Assembly: GCA_036320915.1 (NCBI GenBank)
Contig: JAXBDG010000005.1
Span: forward strand, 1,550,001 to 1,614,000
Length of the DNA stretch: 64,000 nucleotides
From: Linnemannia elongata
Taxonomy: Eukaryota > Mortierellomycota > Mortierellomycetes > Mortierellales > Mortierellaceae
Reading direction: 5' to 3'
The notes under the pieces were generated by a model. It was not told the origin of the DNA and ran no database searches. It worked only from the letters and a program-made list of their open reading frames with translations. The translations under genes were made by a program, and so were the position numbers. Shown here in pieces: positions 33,062 to 42,336 of this stretch; within the stretch, counting starts at the first letter, position 1; every line of letters begins with the position of its first letter.

Positions 33062-33098
<37 letters not shown>
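33062..33098. repeat. T37 homopolymer between convergent genes
   Basis: The longest homopolymer in the window. It lies 45 bp after the glycosyltransferase stop and about 80 bp from the stop of the opposing kinase gene. Confidence 0.95.
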
Positions 33099-33178: not shown

Positions 33179-36100
33179 CTAGACTCCGCGGACGGTAAGA
33201 AGACTGGAAGAGTTGGACAACAGACTGCTTCTCTGACTCGATGCTCCGTCTGCAGTGTGCGTGTTGTGCGTGTTGGCGGTGTGGAAAGAGTCGATCGTCG
33301 TCTGGGAGAGGAGTCGTTCAATCGAAACGCCCTCCGCAAAGACAGTTTGTGGCTGTTGGAGACCATCTTCAGCGTCCATATCAGACTCTTCGTCCTCAAA
33401 CTCATCGTCATCAAACTCGTCGCCGCCTGAAGACCGATCAGCCTGGATAAGCATAACACCATCAGTTAGGGGATCCTGGATCAACACCGATGCTCCACGA
33501 CTCCGCGACCCGCGCTGCTTGCGCTCTCGCTTAGCCGCCCGAACCTCATCCGCGCCGACACTAATAATCTTGAGTCCACCTCCACCTCCATCACAGCAAC
33601 CCAGGACACCCTCAGAGTCGCTCATCAGCATCGGGTCGGCACTCAATCGGATCCGTTGATGGCGTCTCTTTTGACGTGCAGCGGCGATACGATTGTTCTC
33701 GAGCGAGTGCAGCTGAGTCTCGACGTTGTTGTTGTTGGCTTGAACACAACAGGGAAAGACCTCTCCATCGTTCGAGTCGACCAGATCCTCGTGCTCTCCA
33801 TCTAGACCCTCGTCGCTTTGTCCCAACAGATCACTATCATTGTTGTCCTCATCCTCGTCCTCGTCGTCCTCATCGTCATCCTCGACACTAAGAACAGTAG
33901 CTGACGGCAATCCGGCCTCCACCTGCTGCCCAAATTCATCCACACCCGTCGTCAGCACCGCCAAACAACTACGCTTCTGTAAAATCTCCCGCTTCTTCTT
34001 TTGGATCAACTTCCTCTGGTTCAAAAGCTTCAACTCCTCCTCAGCTTTGGCCCGTTCATCCAACCATTCCTCTAAAGTCTTGGAAAGCTCCTCCTTACGG
34101 ATAGGCTTGGAAAGGTATCGGTTCATCCCACTATCGATACATTTCTGTTGGTCCCCCGGCATAACACAGGCGGTCATGGCGACTATCAAAGGCGAGGTGG
34201 CTGTGACGCCGGGGACGGTGGCTCGGATCTCCTTGGTTGCTTCATGACCGCTCATGACGGGCATCCAGATATCCATGAAAACAATGTCGTACTGCTTGAC
34301 CTTCTTCGTCTTCTTACCTCCTCCTCCTCCTGTAGTCGTATTAGATGTCAAACTCGACCCATCCCCGCCTCCCTCAGCAGTAGCAGCTGCAGCAACTGCT
34401 TCAGCTCGCGCCCGACATTTCTCGACAGCCTCAAGCCCATTCGCCGCAAGCTCTGGCACAATCCCAATCCTACTCAGCATCTTGGAAATGACCTTTTGGT
34501 TCACTGGGTTATCGTCGACCAACAAACACTCCAACGACTCCATTTGCTTCTTGCGCTGGTCACTTCGAACATCGTTATCGGGCACCGCGGAGCAAGCGAG
34601 GGGCCATGCCCCCGTCATGAGTCCATGGAACATTGGGAGGAGTTTTGACTGCTTCACGGGTTTGATGAGATGTCCGACCGACGCGTCTTCCTGGTCCGAT
34701 TGGTAAGTGGCGGTAGTAAGGCCGCCAGAAAGGATTGGGCGGTGTGGCGAGGTTGGAGAGCTGCATTTCGGAAGAGTGCCAGCGCCATTGGCACCGCTAC
34801 TACTGCTCATGGTAGGGCTGGTGTTGAAGCAAGAGGACCGGTCCTTGCGAGAATTCCAAGGCTTGGTGACCAACATCCCACTGTTCATGGTGTTGGGCAT
34901 ACACCCCGCATGGGAATTGGGATGGCTACCAAAGGAATCTGAAGAGTCAGTCGCGGCAGTTAAGTTGTCGCTCGACCCAGAACCCTTGGAGGACTTCCTC
35001 TCCTTCACTGGCCCTCCTCCTGAAGCAGAAGAGTTCGGCGCCATGGACATGGGCGAGATCGGGCTGATTGGCGAGGGGCAACCGTGGGTGGCGATTTTGG
35101 AGGAATAGAGGCTGAGATCAGGGTGGTTGCGGCGATGATATGATACCAAGACGCAGGGTATGGGCTTTTCGGGCAACGGCGACGATGACGGAGCCGGCGA
35201 AGGAGGTGAGAGACCTGACGACCCTGTGTCACACTCCTGTCCTTGTGCGGGCAAACTGCGGATCTGTTGAAGGATCGCCAGACCAGGGTTGGCCTTTGCT
35301 TGCGGCCGATCGACATCGATCAGAACCACATCGACCTCATTGCGATGCTGCTTCAAGTAGTCGAGACCCTTTTGGATGTTGAAGACAAGGGTCTTATGGA
35401 ATCCCCAGGTGGATGACTGATGGATCCACGACGTTCTGGTGACCTTGCGGTCGTCGATGATCAAAAGGGTTCTGTCCTTGAAAAAGGCCAGGTTCAGCTG
35501 CTGCGAGACTGTTTGGCTGGACTTTGGAGAACAGAGAAGAGTCGTGAAGTAGAACGTAGAACCCACTCCCTCCTCAGATTCAGCCCACTAATAAGAACGA
35601 AACAAAAATGTCGTTTAGAGTCTGACAATATAGTTGTGTAACGACAAACAAATCAAAAAAAAAAAAAAAAAAAAAAAAAAAAGAAGAAATAAGGCGACTC
35701 ACCATTTCACCATCCATAAATTCAACAAGTCTCTTGGAGATAGCAAGTCCAAGTCCAGTGCCACCAAAGTTCCTGGTCACAGAGTCATCGGCCTGACTGA
35801 ACGACTTGAACAACTTGTGCATCCTCTGCGCAGGAATACCCACGCCTTGATCAGCGACAGACCACAACAGATCGACTCGATTCTCGTCCGACGACGAGGA
35901 CGACGACGACGAATGGCTGTCGCCGGGACTTTCCTGACTACGACTCGAGCTCCAATTCACTGTTGCTGGTTCGGGTACTGGTGCTGGTGCTGATGACGAC
36001 GTACTATACCCTGTATCGCTTCCAGAGCCAGACCTCAATCGTGCTCCAAGATCCGCCAAGTCCAGGCTCGAATCAGAACAAGCGTGCTCGACATTAACCA

Positions 36101-39100
36101 GCAGCCCCGACGTCTCATGAGTCCCCGCTGCTACTGCATGCTCCGGCGACGACGGCAAAGACTCTGATGTCTCCGTCTCATAGTGTGTCTTGTGAAACGA
36201 CCTCGCCATCCTAGGCTTAGGTTCCAGCTTCACAACAATATTCCCCTTCTCTGTAAACTTGATCGCGTTACTCAACAGATTCAGCAAAATCTGTCGAATA
36301 CGTACCAAGTCTCCCAGGACTTCAATCGGTGTATCAGGGTGAATGACAAAAGTCAGACCCAATCCCTTGGTGGCAGCCTGCATGAGAACCAGGTTGCATA
36401 CGGATTCCAACAGATGTGGCAGGTCGAGCTTCTCGGGAGCCAACTTGAGGTTTCCAGATTCGATCTTGCTGAAATCGAGAATATCGTCAATGACGGCCAT
36501 CAACTGGTTGCCACTCGACTCAATTGTCTCGGCGCAATCCATCAAGTCTGGGGAGAGGTCTGATTCGAGCAGGATCCTTGACATGCCAATAACCGCGTTC
36601 ATAGGCGTTCTATTTCCATATGTGAAAAGAAACAAATGGTTGCATAGTTAGAGTAAAGTTTCAACAGCAGGCTACACAAAATAAAAGGAACTAGCAAGCA
36701 ACCAACAATGTTTTACCTGATCTCATGCGACATGTTCGCCAAAAAGTTGGACTTTGCTGTGGCAGCAGCCTCGGCCTGATTCTTGGACTGTTTGAGATCG
36801 ATCAGAAGCGCGTCCGTGCGAAGGCGCTCCTCCTCCAGCTCAGCCGTCCGTGTTTGAAGATGCATCGTTCTCGTCCGAACCAGCTCCTCCATGTCGTTGG
36901 CATACTTCTCGAGCAAGGCCGCCATCCCTCCGATCATGTCACCGTCAGGACTAATGAGTCGCAGTCGATGTTGGATGTTAGCGAACGAAGGACGCATCAG
37001 GGGCTCAGACTGAAGACAATTGCGGATCAAATTGTTCAAGTGCGCGATACCCTCGTCCCTTTCGTTGTCGACAAAGGGGTCAGGTCTCAGGCCGTCATAC
37101 TTGATGAGATCCAAAAGCTGCGAGGGTCCATCGACCGGATCCATGTCCTGGAGCTGTCTCTCATAGGGCGAGGTCCGTGTCATGATCTCGTTAAAGACAA
37201 TGCCCGCGCTAAAGACGTCGCCAGACTTGGTGGCCACTTTGTGATAGACACGACCCCTGTGGATCATGTTCTCGGGAGCAACCCAAAGACCGGCATGGAT
37301 CTCGGCTGCAGTGCTCGCAATCAAGTAAGGGCATCCATCCTTCTCATTCTCATCCTCCTCAATTGCCGAAAGAGGGCGTGGCGGCACGACAGATCCGATA
37401 CTCAAAGCACGACTGTCAGTGCTCGCTCGCATGACCGAGTTTCTCTGTCCTTCTGTACTATCAGCTGCAGGAGCGCCATTCTCTGCTTGCACTGCGGTCA
37501 CTGTAACGGCAGGTGTGCTGACAGTAGTTGTCGATCGCCCGTATCTCGTCCGCTGAGTCTCCATGAGCTCCAAGAGGCCATATCCTCCGACTTTGACCTC
37601 CCACCGGCTCGTGACCAGACAGTTCGATGATCGCAGATCTCCATGACATTGGATCTTGGAGTTTTGTAGAAACTCCATCCCGCGCGAAATATCGCTCATG
37701 AACGACAACTTGAAGAGCCAGTTGAAGTTCAGGTCAGGGTTGGCCAGAACTTCAGTCAACGTACCCTTGGAGCAGTGCTCGTACACGATACAAATGTCCG
37801 GGGGTTGAAGACAGACACCGACCAGCTCGACCAGCTTTGGGTGTCGCAGCTCCATCACGTCCATGATCTCGATCCTCAACTTCCGTGTCAGGTTGACCTT
37901 GGATCCTCCAATGCGGCGAATAAAGACAGGCAGGTTGCGGTAGACACCGATCGCGTTCCCGGAGGCGTCCATCGGTTGGATCCCATTCACGCCGACGGCG
38001 AATGTAGAGTGACTCCGGTGGAATCGACCGGTGGGACGTGCGCCATATGCCGGCTTTTTCTTGGAACTAGAGAAGAATCCCTTCTCCATGTTCGACTCTG
38101 TGTTGCCCCCATCACTGCCGTTGCCATACGAGTCGTTGTCGTCGTCCTGGCTAGGATCCGGTTCCTGGCCCATGAGCTTGCTGTACGAGAGCTGCCATGA
38201 GTCATCAAGAATCTTCCTGTTCCTGTCGCGCTTCTGGAAGCAGTACATGAAGACGGCGGTCGCGGTGAGGCCAAATAAGACAAGACCTATTGGCAAGAAT
38301 ATCGCCAGAGTGTTGTCGTTACTCTGTTGCTGCTGTTGTTTCGACAAGAAGTACTTCTGGCAGGCAGGCGCCGATTGGCCCTCCTCGTCGCAGCTCCAAC
38401 AAAAAGTCGACCCTGTATGGTTGGTGAAGGTTCCGTCTGGGCATGCTGTGCAGTTTTGACTGTTGTAGGTGCTGCTGAAATGTTGGGCGGGACAAGGATG
38501 GCAATAAGGGCGGCCCACATGTGCTCCATTTTGTTGACGACAGAAGAGTGATGTTGTGTCGCCTTCCAAAGAAAACATTTGTCCCTTAGCGCAGACATAG
38601 TTGACGCGCGCAGGCCCAGTCTCGAAAAAGTTCCAGGTGCTGTCCTGAACCACTGTCGAAAACGCAAGCTGGAAGACGGACATGAATCCATTGAGATACG
38701 ACTGCTGGGACCACAAGTTGGCAACCTTGCCTTCCACAAAGTCAGCGAGCGCATAGGCAGATCGTCCAGTAGTCGTGATCGAAATGTTGTTGATGGCCGA
38801 GCTGTACCTCCGGACATATCCATATAGGCTTGTCGAGGTAGTGTGAAGGCTGTCGTATGGGTACACTTTAGACAGCTCGGAAAACTTTTGCTCCGACTGC
38901 AGGAACTCGGTCATGTCGAGGCGCACGCAAAAGGTGTTGAAGGCTGGTAGGCTGTTTGGACCCAGAATAGCCAGCATACGGTCGTACAAACCCTGGCACA
39001 TCAACATCTGCTGCTCGGGCTCGTCCGAGGACACGACACAGATGGGCCGTCTCCTTCCGTTGGCCAGGATGGCATCGGCATACTCGTTTCCTGCCAAGTA

Positions 39101-39828
39101 GCCGGTCTCGCCAACCCATGACAGGTGTTGGAATGAGGTGAGGTTAGTCACAGGCGAGCCAATGCCGACAATAGGGACAGGCAGGGCTTTTTTGGTGGTG
39201 TAGTTCCACGGAATCAATGCCTTACAGTCGACCGTGCCCGGTGTGTTGATATTGTTGTTATTGTTACTGTTGTTGCAGCCGAGTTGTTCGGTTTTGTTGG
39301 TGTTCGATGTCCGAGAGGGAACTTGGTCAAGAGACTTCACGACGGCGTAGTCGACATTGCTGAAATGACTGTTGCTCACAATCAAACCCTGCGTATGGCG
39401 GTAACTCAAGGCCGTGTCGATGCTATAAGCAACAACCTCAGTCCGGATCGGACTGCCGTATCGGTATTCTGTCATTTCCCAACCAAGAGCCTGTGCAGCA
39501 TCTCTGGCTCCTGTCGAAAGGGCGTTCCAGTGATCATCCGATGCCGAACTACCCAATTGTAAAGTGAAAGGGACCGTCAGGTTCTGTTACCCAAAGAAGC
39601 AATCGATACCTGGATCGTTTTGTAAAGGGGAGAGGATCATACCTTCCGGTCATGACACTAAAATTGAGGGCGTATTCCTTGAAAGTTGTGGCGGTCCATT
39701 GTTCCTGCATTAACATTGTCTTGGCATTGCGAGGGGTGACCAGCTTGGGTCCTGTCAAGATCTTGTTCTGGTTCACCATCTCGCCAAAGTTGAGCTATAC
39801 AGATTGATGAAAATGAGAACAAGCCAAA

Positions 39829-39865
<37 letters not shown>

Positions 39866-41223
39866 GAGCTTGTATCCTATCCGAGACGCGAATCACTTGC
39901 TTGCTTGTATTCGAGTTTAGTCGATATCTTACCTGGACGTAGAGCAAGAGAATAGGAATGAGGGTCTGAAGGTAGAGCATACTTGAGATGGAGTAGTGAA
40001 GTGTACCAGTAGTAAAAGCGGTCATCATTGCTGGGCTAAAATCAAAGGAAGCATACACAAACTCGCGTGTCCCGTTCAATGCTCTGGCCAGATTGAAGCT
40101 GGTCTCGAGGAAGACTGGCGATGTGAGGTAGACGACTCCCGTTACGGTCTTCATATCCACGATAGTATCCCTGAGGGTTTGGATAGAGTTTCCCAGGGTC
40201 GTGTTGCGAGGCTTGTCCACGTGAAGCATTCGTGTCGAAACATCACTTGAAAGACTAATACCGGCATCTAAAAATGCTTGCAGTACACCGCCGCAACGAT
40301 CTGCCATTGTTGGTATCTTGAGGCTTGGGCCGATGCACACAAAGTCCTTGGCGCCTTGGTGGATCAGTTGTTGACCCAGAGTTCTTCCTCCTTCAAACTA
40401 CAAAAAAAAAGTACACGAGAACACGAAGACGACCCGGTTAACATTTTTTTTTTTTTTTATCAATTTCAATTACGCAAATTTGCGAAAGAAGTTATTTTCA
40501 TTTTACCTCATCGGACATGACGGCAAGAATATTCAATTCCTTTGCAGCTGCTAGTCCAGTGTAAACGGCGATGACAGGGATGCCATGCTCCTTCGCTTTG
40601 AGGATAGGTTCCCGTAGGGCCTCGTAGTCAGGTATAGAGACAATCAGTGCATCGACAGGGTTATTGATAGCGCTATAGATGGCGTTGCTCATCCGTTGAG
40701 GGTCGTATTCCGTGTCGGCAAGATCGTCTGTGATGGAAACGGTGAGGGGCAATATTGCCTTTGCGTCCAGTTTTGCACCTTCTGGAAGGATAACTGAGGC
40801 TGTGTAATTGTATCAAAACGATGTGTATATGCAAATGAGCATGAGTGTCCAGCATGGTTAGTTGTTTGACCGTAAAAAGGATGATTCGAGAGCCCAAAGT
40901 CGCGTTTGTAATAAAATTGAAGGGAAGAGCGAGCAGCAGCAGCGACGTCTCTTACAATGTGTGACGAGGGATATTCGGAGATTGCCTTTGCGGGTATCGG
41001 TACAGTTGGGCCATTGGTGTGACTCCTTGGTTGTGTTGCTGAACCCTGGATCGATAGAGGGAGGATATGTTGGCACCGCTGGAGCCGGTACCAGCCCTGT
41101 GCTCGTCGTTGGCTGTTGCGCATTGATCGCTTGAAGTAGAGAGAAGAGAAGGAGGAATGTGAGGAGTAGTGGGCGATGTAGTGTTGTTGAGGCTGCTGGT
41201 GATGAAATTACAGTGTCCCTCAT
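33179..41223 (-). CDS. Receptor hybrid histidine kinase with PBP-like ectodomain and guanylyl-cyclase-type kinase-homology domain, 2441 aa
   Basis: Seven exons: 41223-40956, 40799-40507, 40397-39933, 39794-39643, 39548-36717, 36609-35703 and 35587-33179. The order is signal peptide (1-35, ending QAINA); periplasmic-binding-protein-like modules (about 85-690); Cys-rich repeat (740-790, [18 protein letters not shown]); one membrane helix (about 803-830); and kinase-homology domain (about 920-1250: [30 protein letters not shown]). A linker [15 protein letters not shown] follows, then HisKA with [15 protein letters not shown] (His about 1334), HATPase ([16 protein letters not shown]), receiver 1 (LIIDD, Asp about 1730, Lys in GHLIKPV) and receiver 2 ([23 protein letters not shown] with Asp about 2078, YLSKPI). 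The predicted role is sensing an extracellular ligand and signalling by His-Asp phosphorelay. The exon 2 acceptor may lie 6 nt further downstream. The acidic C-terminal 300 residues are disordered. Confidence 0.93.
35655..35682. repeat. A28 homopolymer in an intron of the receptor kinase
   Basis: Lies in the intron 35702-35588, about 20 bases after the GTGAGT donor on the transcribed strand, where it reads as T. Confidence 0.9.
39830..39863. repeat. A34 homopolymer in an intron of the receptor kinase
   Basis: Lies in the intron 39932-39795 between exons 3 and 4. It reads as a T run in the transcript and ends about 35 nt before the acceptor. Confidence 0.9.
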
Positions 41224-42004: not shown

Positions 42005-42336
42005 TAGGCTCGCTTTCATCCGTTTCATATTACGAGGGTTGGAAATCTTTTCGATTTCTTTAGGACACTCTTCATATGACGGCTGGAAGGCGTCCAGCGT
42101 ACCTAAAGGGGATCCCAAAAAGGAAAGTTGTTAAGGGTTTTACACAGGCGTAGAACATTTTTTTTTTGGGAAATCACGAAGGTGCTTCTACGCCTGTGTA
42201 AAACCCTTAACAACTTTCCTTTTTGGGATCCCCTTTAGGTACGCTGGACGCCTTCCAGCCGTCATATGAAGAGTGTCCTAAAGAAATCGAAAAGATTTCC
42301 AACCCTCGTAATATGAAACGGATGAAAGCGAGCCTA
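42005..42336. mobile_element. Foldback (MITE-like) element, copy 2
   Basis: A 332-bp palindrome whose 151-bp arms match those of the copy at 2588-2918 by eye. Only the spacer differs: one extra T, and GGG in place of GAG. The ends are TAGGCTCGC and GCGAGCCTA, with a 9-bp duplication CTTCGTTTC on both sides. Near identity of both copies and intact duplications indicate recent insertion. No transposase is present. Confidence 0.92.

Follow-up and report, generated by a model that had tools for sequence, protein, structure and literature searches.

Architecture of the receptor

A stretch of 64,000 nucleotides from Linnemannia elongata (assembly GCA_036320915.1, contig JAXBDG010000005.1, positions 1,550,001 to 1,614,000; hereafter the window) carries on its minus strand a receptor gene in which a kinase-homology domain (KHD) of the type found in animal receptor guanylyl cyclases (RGCs) is followed by a hybrid histidine kinase (HHK). 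Comparison of sequences established the architecture of the protein, the RGC affinity of its KHD, the junction at the signalling helix (S-helix) and the intact histidine-kinase motifs; on these grounds the gene is a real member of a conserved receptor family of three copies, a hybrid histidine kinase whose KHD is homologous to that of animal receptor cyclases. We consider with good confidence that the family consists of single-pass plasma-membrane receptors, which share with the RGCs a homologous KHD and S-helix start and in which the output enzyme was exchanged at the S-helix.

The seven exons (41223-40956, 40799-40507, 40397-39933, 39794-39643, 39548-36717, 36609-35703 and 35587-33179, minus strand) were joined through six GT-AG introns of 94-156 bases with compatible phases into a single frame of 2441 residues, which stopped at the same coordinate as the gene of the original prediction, an earlier reading of this DNA. 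Intron 4 was set from the sequence, where the acceptor ending at 39549 was in frame and the nearer acceptor ending at 39584 was out of frame. Pfam matched, from the N- to the C-terminus, Peripla_BP_4 (4.3e-18), Ephrin_rec_like (3.4e-5), PK_Tyr_Ser-Thr (5.9e-29), HisKA (4.1e-11), HATPase_c (6.3e-19) and Response_reg (5.2e-24). Hydrophobic 19-residue segments above the threshold were found at residues 15-36, 323-341 and 804-831, of which the second is probably a buried helix within the first periplasmic-binding-protein (PBP) domain. The resulting layout was a signal peptide, a PBP ectodomain, a Cys-rich stretch, one transmembrane helix, KHD, S-helix, HisKA, HATPase and receivers, and the spliced model, Pfam and hydropathy all agreed with the domain order proposed earlier, which the two paralogues repeated. 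The proposed number of domains held for the two receivers, though receiver 1 was degenerate, and not for the single PBP domain, of which there are probably two. The features on the minus strand were as follows.

33179..41223, minus: receptor hybrid histidine kinase gene; 7 exons, 2441 residues; two paralogues
41116..41181, minus: signal peptide core, residues 15-36; hydropathy
39678..40980, minus: PBP domain 1 (PBP1; Peripla_BP_4, CUT2 sugar-binding type), residues 82-381, spliced; Pfam and PDB search
38513..39677, minus: probable PBP domain 2 (PBP2), residues 382-738, spliced; weak profile and fold matches
38339..38512, minus: Cys-rich stretch, Ephrin_rec_like or NCD3G-like, residues 739-796; Pfam, NCD3G under its cut-off
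38234..38317, minus: single transmembrane helix, residues 804-831; hydropathy
36938..37948, minus: KHD of RGC type, residues 927-1263, with a variable insert of 91 residues; searches and trees
36767..36937, minus: S-helix, residues 1264-1320; NPR-A match, TorS/BarA match, one helix in a poor model
36441..36766, minus: HisKA/DHp, residues 1321-1393, with intron 36610-36716; phospho-accepting His1334 by motif; Pfam
35540..36440, minus: HATPase_c, residues 1394-1655, with intron 35588-35702; Pfam and NCBIfam
34625..35476, minus: receiver-like domain 1, degenerate, residues 1677-1960; Pfam, 21.9 bits under the cut-off of 30.2
34067..34534, minus: receiver domain 2, canonical, residues 1991-2146; Asp2078 by motif; Pfam and NCBIfam

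Exon 5 (36717-39548) was open throughout and by itself encoded everything from the KHD through the S-helix to the phospho-accepting histidine of the H-box. It is barely conceivable that the receptor and the histidine kinase are adjacent genes joined by an error of the gene model, since these three parts fall in that one exon and since both the junction and the phase-2 intron after the residues SHEI were the same in the two paralogues, on contigs C27 and C11. The architecture is also beyond chance, because it recurs in these two other genes of the genome.

Affinity of the kinase-homology domain to receptor guanylyl cyclases

When the window KHD was searched against PDB with phmmer, NPR-A (137.5 bits) and GC-C (87.4 bits) ranked ahead of ABL1 (61.1 bits) among the best 60 of 1292 matches. 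A profile of the three fungal KHDs gave NPR-A 176.4, GC-C 126.4, JAK 87.1 (four stretches summed) and ABL1 81.7 bits among the best 60 of 1284. In the reverse direction, the NPR-A fragment searched against the genome found the C27 paralogue (108 bits) and the window gene (103 bits), followed by an ordinary kinase at 60 bits. The KHD core shared 46 of 122 residues with NPR-A, HMMER aligned 126 residues to 126 without a gap, and the catalytic-loop stretch read HGDLRSSNC here and HGNLKSSNC in the NPR-A alignment. As controls, two kinases of the same genome (L024 and L035) matched PDGFR/VEGFR/IRAK and MAP3K/GCN2, respectively, with no cyclase receptor among the best 60 of 1590 and of 1707 matches. 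The KHD profile returned 153 pattern matches and no relatives among viral contigs, and 140 pattern matches with two relatives among prokaryote genomes, neither of them matching within the KHD.

The first tree contained 32 rows and 233 columns (the three KHDs, NPR-A, GC-C, JAK JH1 and 26 kinases of the genome itself, drawn from 30 PF07714 loci after omission of L039, L043, L045 and L048, which had stop codons in the match), and it placed the three KHDs with NPR-A and GC-C in one clade with support 96/99. In the second tree (35 rows, with PDGFRA, MAP3K5 and MAP3K2 added) this clade reached 100/99. In three quick trees, from which six long rows, GC-C, or C11 with one long row were omitted, the remaining members of the clade (five, four and four) again grouped together, with approximate likelihood-ratio (SH-aLRT) values of 98.7, 99.2 and 99.0, so that the KHD and RGC rows formed one clade in all five trees. 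Both the searches in two directions and the trees bore out the RGC-type KHD of the original prediction, within the two RGCs compared, and in none of them did the KHD group with unrelated protein kinases, the outcome named beforehand as speaking against it. According to these comparisons, the KHDs of RGCs were nearer to the present one than were any of the other kinases listed or treed, and as far as sequence can tell, homology to animal RGCs extends from the KHD into the beginning of the S-helix. The three fungal KHDs grouped together (99/97) and not within NPR-A and GC-C. The split of NPR-A with GC-C was supported by 97/93 in the first tree and only 81/39 in the second, and because of this weakness the order of branching between the fungal KHDs and the RGC paralogues is not fixed by the trees.

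We considered whether the KHD might be an ordinary fungal tyrosine-kinase-like domain placed before an S-helix histidine kinase, its likeness to cyclases being the convergence of a degenerate kinase. PF07714 domains are abundant in the genome (at least 151 matches), TorS and BarA models match the S-helix, and S-helices before histidine kinases are common according to PMC1592074 (papers cited by PMC number are represented here by parts of their text, to which statements about them extend). This origin was nevertheless rejected as very unlikely: the best matches were with RGCs in both directions, the RGC clade stood at 96/99 and 100/99, and the resemblance of HGDLRSSNC to HGNLKSSNC lay within a gapless alignment of 126 residues.

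The residues of an active kinase were not retained. In the phmmer register, the VAIK lysine was Arg in the window gene and C27 and Lys in C11; the HRD motif read HGD, HGD and HGR in the window gene, C27 and C11; and the DFG triad was GYG in all three copies, with Asp replaced by Gly. The set was therefore R, D, G in the window gene, R, D, G in C27 and K, R, G in C11, which is not that of an active kinase, and the KHD is unlikely to phosphorylate anything. A dual receptor, in which the KHD would be active alongside the histidine kinase, would draw on the catalytic-loop Asp kept in two of the three copies (HGD); it is highly improbable and was rejected, as the DFG Asp was lost in all three copies and the VAIK Lys was Arg in two. 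An insert of 91 residues follows GYG (37304-37576 of the window, residues 1051-1141); it is longer in C11, shows 26% identity to C27 and changes fast.

The S-helix junction

The S-helix followed the KHD directly, and its start was matched in NPR-A by phmmer and by the KHD profile, with 10 of 24 residues shared with NPR-A (9 in C11). The spacing from ELV to ALL was 25 residues in all three copies and 18 in NPR-A, a difference of seven residues or one heptad, and the phospho-accepting histidine lay 53 residues after ELV in every copy. From the histidine-kinase side, the NCBIfam TorS model matched residues 879-943 of the translated piece P0001 (residues 1272-1336 of the protein) with E 1.5e-8 and 33.2 bits, under the full-length cut-off. 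Two Lachnospiraceae contigs matched the KHD-profile query only at its residues 371-423, which are the S-helix and H-box. Since the S-helix was matched from the cyclase side and from the histidine-kinase side, it cannot alone show which came first. The linker motif of 15 residues singled out in the original prediction (residues 1273-1287) does belong to an S-helix of the kind common to RGCs and histidine kinases, and taken alone it is not cyclase-specific, as shown by the TorS and BarA matches. In an otherwise poor AlphaFold model, residues 1264-1335 formed a single helix, the confident part of which began at about residues 1284-1294 (block means of pLDDT were 68 from residue 1284 and 87-92 over residues 1294-1323). 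In the 2006 description of the S-helix, a position downstream of a kinase domain was given only for animal receptor cyclases, and the fungal cases were all Sln1p-like (PMC1592074).

Histidine kinase and receivers

HisKA, HATPase_c and a receiver occurred together in one protein, as in an HHK. The H, N, G1 and G2 boxes and the receiver Asp and Lys were intact by motif position. The exon-6 piece (residues 1338-1638) scored best with BarA among NCBIfam models (197.8 bits), with TorS at 185.0 and LuxQ fourth at 151.7 bits, all under their full-length cut-offs. The class III cyclase domain PF00211 had no match in the receptor protein. The domains of a phosphorelay output in place of a cyclase, as originally predicted, were thus found, with their motifs intact. 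Possible partners for such a relay were encoded in the genome, with at least two HPt and at least 20 receiver matches.

The ectodomain

The best PDB match of PBP1 was 4ru1 (6e-26). Its 36 matches at E up to 0.01 were sugar- or substrate-binding proteins or related by name, purine repressors excepted, and no natriuretic receptor was among them. Pfam reported Peripla_BP_4, and not ANF_receptor (PF01094), for the window gene, C27 and C11, and all three Peripla_BP_4 matches found in the genome sat in these three receptors. The idea that the input module is the same as that of the RGCs was therefore not upheld: the ectodomain is of the sugar substrate-binding type, with cysteines like those of Ephrin_rec_like or NCD3G, and a likeness to RGCs over the whole input module is not supported. 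The ligand is probably a sugar or polyol.

For PBP2, the NCBIfam model NF052284 (rhizopine-binding or ABC substrate-binding protein) matched weakly over P0001 residues 120-317 with E 8.9e-6, at 25.1 of 420 bits and far under the curated cut-off, and no single stretch passed. A PDB profile search gave 4ru1 at E 0.04, and its top match, Mst1, fell on the Cys-rich part instead. With the low-confidence AlphaFold model, Foldseek related the PBP2 region to LacI-type and CaSR structures with weak support.

Paralogues

In the 51-Mb genome of 32 contigs, where the counts of motif families are lower bounds, at least 15 HisKA matches were found at E up to 0.001 (14 above the cut-off), three of which belonged to the window gene (contig C28), C27 and C11. 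Window exon 5 was 61% identical to C27:1471841-1474594 over residues 4-943 of 943 and 54-59% identical to C11 in three stretches. The exon-5 search gave seven matches including itself, and the two that came from neither C27 nor C11 were weak kinase matches. The KHD, S-helix and phospho-accepting histidine lay in one exon in both the window gene and C27, as did the KHD C-lobe from SAGII on, the S-helix and the histidine in C11. The intron between the PBP domains was also kept in C27, with a GC donor there. At C27:1474605-1474704 (L018), a GC-AG intron 4 (AG|GCAAGT) was needed where the window gene had GT-AG.

Identity between the window gene and C27 was 95% in HisKA, 92% in the KHD core, 91% in the S-helix and 69% in the KHD C-lobe; it was 65% in receiver 2, 60% in HATPase, 59% in the Cys-rich stretch and 51-54% in the PBP domains, where the uncertain C27 model at intron 2 (a conserved stretch is missing) lowers the value for PBP1. 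The lowest values were 38% in receiver 1, 36% in the transmembrane and juxtamembrane region, 26% in the KHD insert and 22% in the C-terminal tail. C11 was spliced only from before the KHD to the stop (1757 residues), its PBP, Cys-rich and transmembrane parts being open frames, and it shared with the window gene 75 of 124 residues in the KHD core, 34 of 57 in the S-helix, 66 of 73 in HisKA, 83 of 155 in receiver 2 and 42 of 110 in the C-lobe. The KHD core, S-helix and HisKA were the most conserved parts, which would fit a transmission unit serving varying ligands.

Proposed mechanism and origin of the fusion

The order of steps proposed here follows the anatomy of the protein, and each step is taken from what is known of its domain family. 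A small, probably sugar-like ligand would bind the PBP ectodomain and alter the dimer. The catalytically dead KHD would act as an allosteric relay, as in NPR-A, and turn or release the S-helix coiled coil, the state of which would set the autophosphorylation of His1334. The phosphate would then pass from His1334 to Asp2078 of receiver 2, to the HPt proteins of the genome and to response regulators.

Several observations weigh against this reading of the protein or parts of it. The best C11 piece ranked only seventh of 24 in the NPR-A reverse search, at 55 bits, because its KHD is split by introns, and only two RGC KHDs, those of NPR-A and GC-C, were compared. The linker alone is not specific to cyclases, since TorS and BarA models and two bacterial contigs match it too. 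The AlphaFold models were poor (mean pLDDT 41 and 44, from alignments of 5 and 3 rows) and gave no usable fold for the KHD or PBP2. PBP2, the probable second PBP domain, is indicated by weak matches; it had no Pfam match, and when hhalign compared it with PBP1 the result fell short of significance (probability 2.4%). Receiver 1 kept Asp-like motifs in the window gene and C27, yet it scored only 21.9 and 14.0 bits there (cut-off 30.2), and in C11 Pfam did not match it even at E up to 10. We regard it as a degenerate pseudo-receiver.

An exchange of domains at the S-helix is our explanation of why the output enzyme differs from that of the RGCs. The domain swap of the original prediction would thus stand for the KHD, the junction and the output, and not for the whole input module, the ectodomain being of the sugar-binding type. 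As to its direction, an animal-type receptor cyclase, acquired or inherited by fungi, may have shed its cyclase and received a histidine kinase at the S-helix, a course that we hold to be less likely than not. In its favour, RGCs occur widely in animals (PMC1435932) and the S-helix accepts either output (PMC1592074). Against it, no KHD-cyclase was found in the genome, where the only two PF00211 loci found lie elsewhere and both are preceded by PP2C, within the same open frame in L009 and in the preceding frame in L010; we take this layout to be that of fungal adenylyl cyclase. The grouping of the fungal KHDs outside NPR-A and GC-C, with the variable support for the NPR-A and GC-C split given above, also speaks against it.

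Conversely, the KHD and S-helix module could have arisen on a histidine kinase in the opisthokont ancestor and been joined to a cyclase in its place in animals, which we hold to be rather unlikely. The presence of three copies, one of them divergent, shows that this form did not arise recently in the lineage, and two-component kinases are not known from animals. A bolder version is unlikely: the whole module of PBP, transmembrane helix, KHD and S-helix would be older than the divergence of animals from fungi, its first output would have been a histidine kinase, and the fungal family would preserve the older form. If it were true, animal RGCs, among them the receptors for natriuretic peptides, for guanylin and of the retina, would derive from a two-component receptor in which a cyclase took the place of the original output at the S-helix as histidine kinases were given up in the animal lineage.

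Comparison with known systems

Like NPR-A and GC-C, the receptor, with output exchanged as we propose, has a signal peptide, a PBP-like ectodomain, one transmembrane helix, a degenerate KHD in the same clade and an S-helix. Unlike them, it has no cyclase and ends in HisKA, HATPase and receivers, its ectodomain matches Peripla_BP_4 and not ANF_receptor, and its helix is one heptad longer between ELV and ALL. TorS, BarA and LuxQ, the bacterial hybrid kinases to which the exon-6 piece scores, resemble it in the output, and TorS also from the S-helix to the H-box. TorS and LuxQ act with the PBP proteins TorT and LuxP, whereas the PBP is covalently joined here and a pseudokinase stands between the membrane and the S-helix. 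In the hybrid two-component systems of Bacteroides, a PBP sensor ectodomain is fused to a hybrid histidine kinase with a DNA-binding output; the combination of PBP and hybrid histidine kinase is alike, but a KHD is lacking there. Class C GPCR ectodomains share the PBP fold followed by a Cys-rich stretch (the NCD3G-like match was under its cut-off, and Foldseek found CaSR with a poor model), unlike which the present protein has one transmembrane helix and a histidine-kinase output.

The order of HisKA, HATPase and receiver is that of fungal HHKs, of which PMC5285503 gives 16 groups; Pfam showed a PBP and kinase-like sensor in the present protein, and no KHD sensor is named in the text of that paper represented here. 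The same survey covered HHKs of early-diverging fungi including Mortierella elongata and mentioned "unprecedented" HHKs with transmembrane helices, and the PBP-KHD-HHK architecture may already be among its early-diverging types. No like architecture occurs in the parts of PMC6944256 or PMC4758236 represented here. A KHD-histidine kinase was not described in the titles and abstract openings of the literature searched, which left most subscription journals outside and does not show absence from print. In 2019 a study of 72 genomes reported that it had found no sign of receptor-kinase architectures among fungi, where only HHKs resembled them (PMC6733946). The present family joins a receptor-kinase-like architecture with an HHK in fungi and places an RGC-type KHD outside animals and without a cyclase. 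It provides a natural experiment on whether an output enzyme of unrelated kind can be controlled by a KHD, and it points to an extracellular, probably sugar-like signal.

Sequence elements around the gene

Long poly-T or poly-A runs were present at 39830-39863 and 35655-35682, in introns 3 and 6, and at 33062-33098, downstream of the stop codon. A perfect inverted repeat (42005-42336, with arms of 151 nucleotides and a loop of 30) lay about 0.8 kb upstream of the receptor gene. Full-length pairs of its arm were found at ten genome sites, two of them in the window (42005-42336 and 2588-2918), and both arms were 100% identical to the query at eight of the ten. The repeat is probably a foldback element or one like a miniature inverted-repeat transposable element, perhaps recently active.

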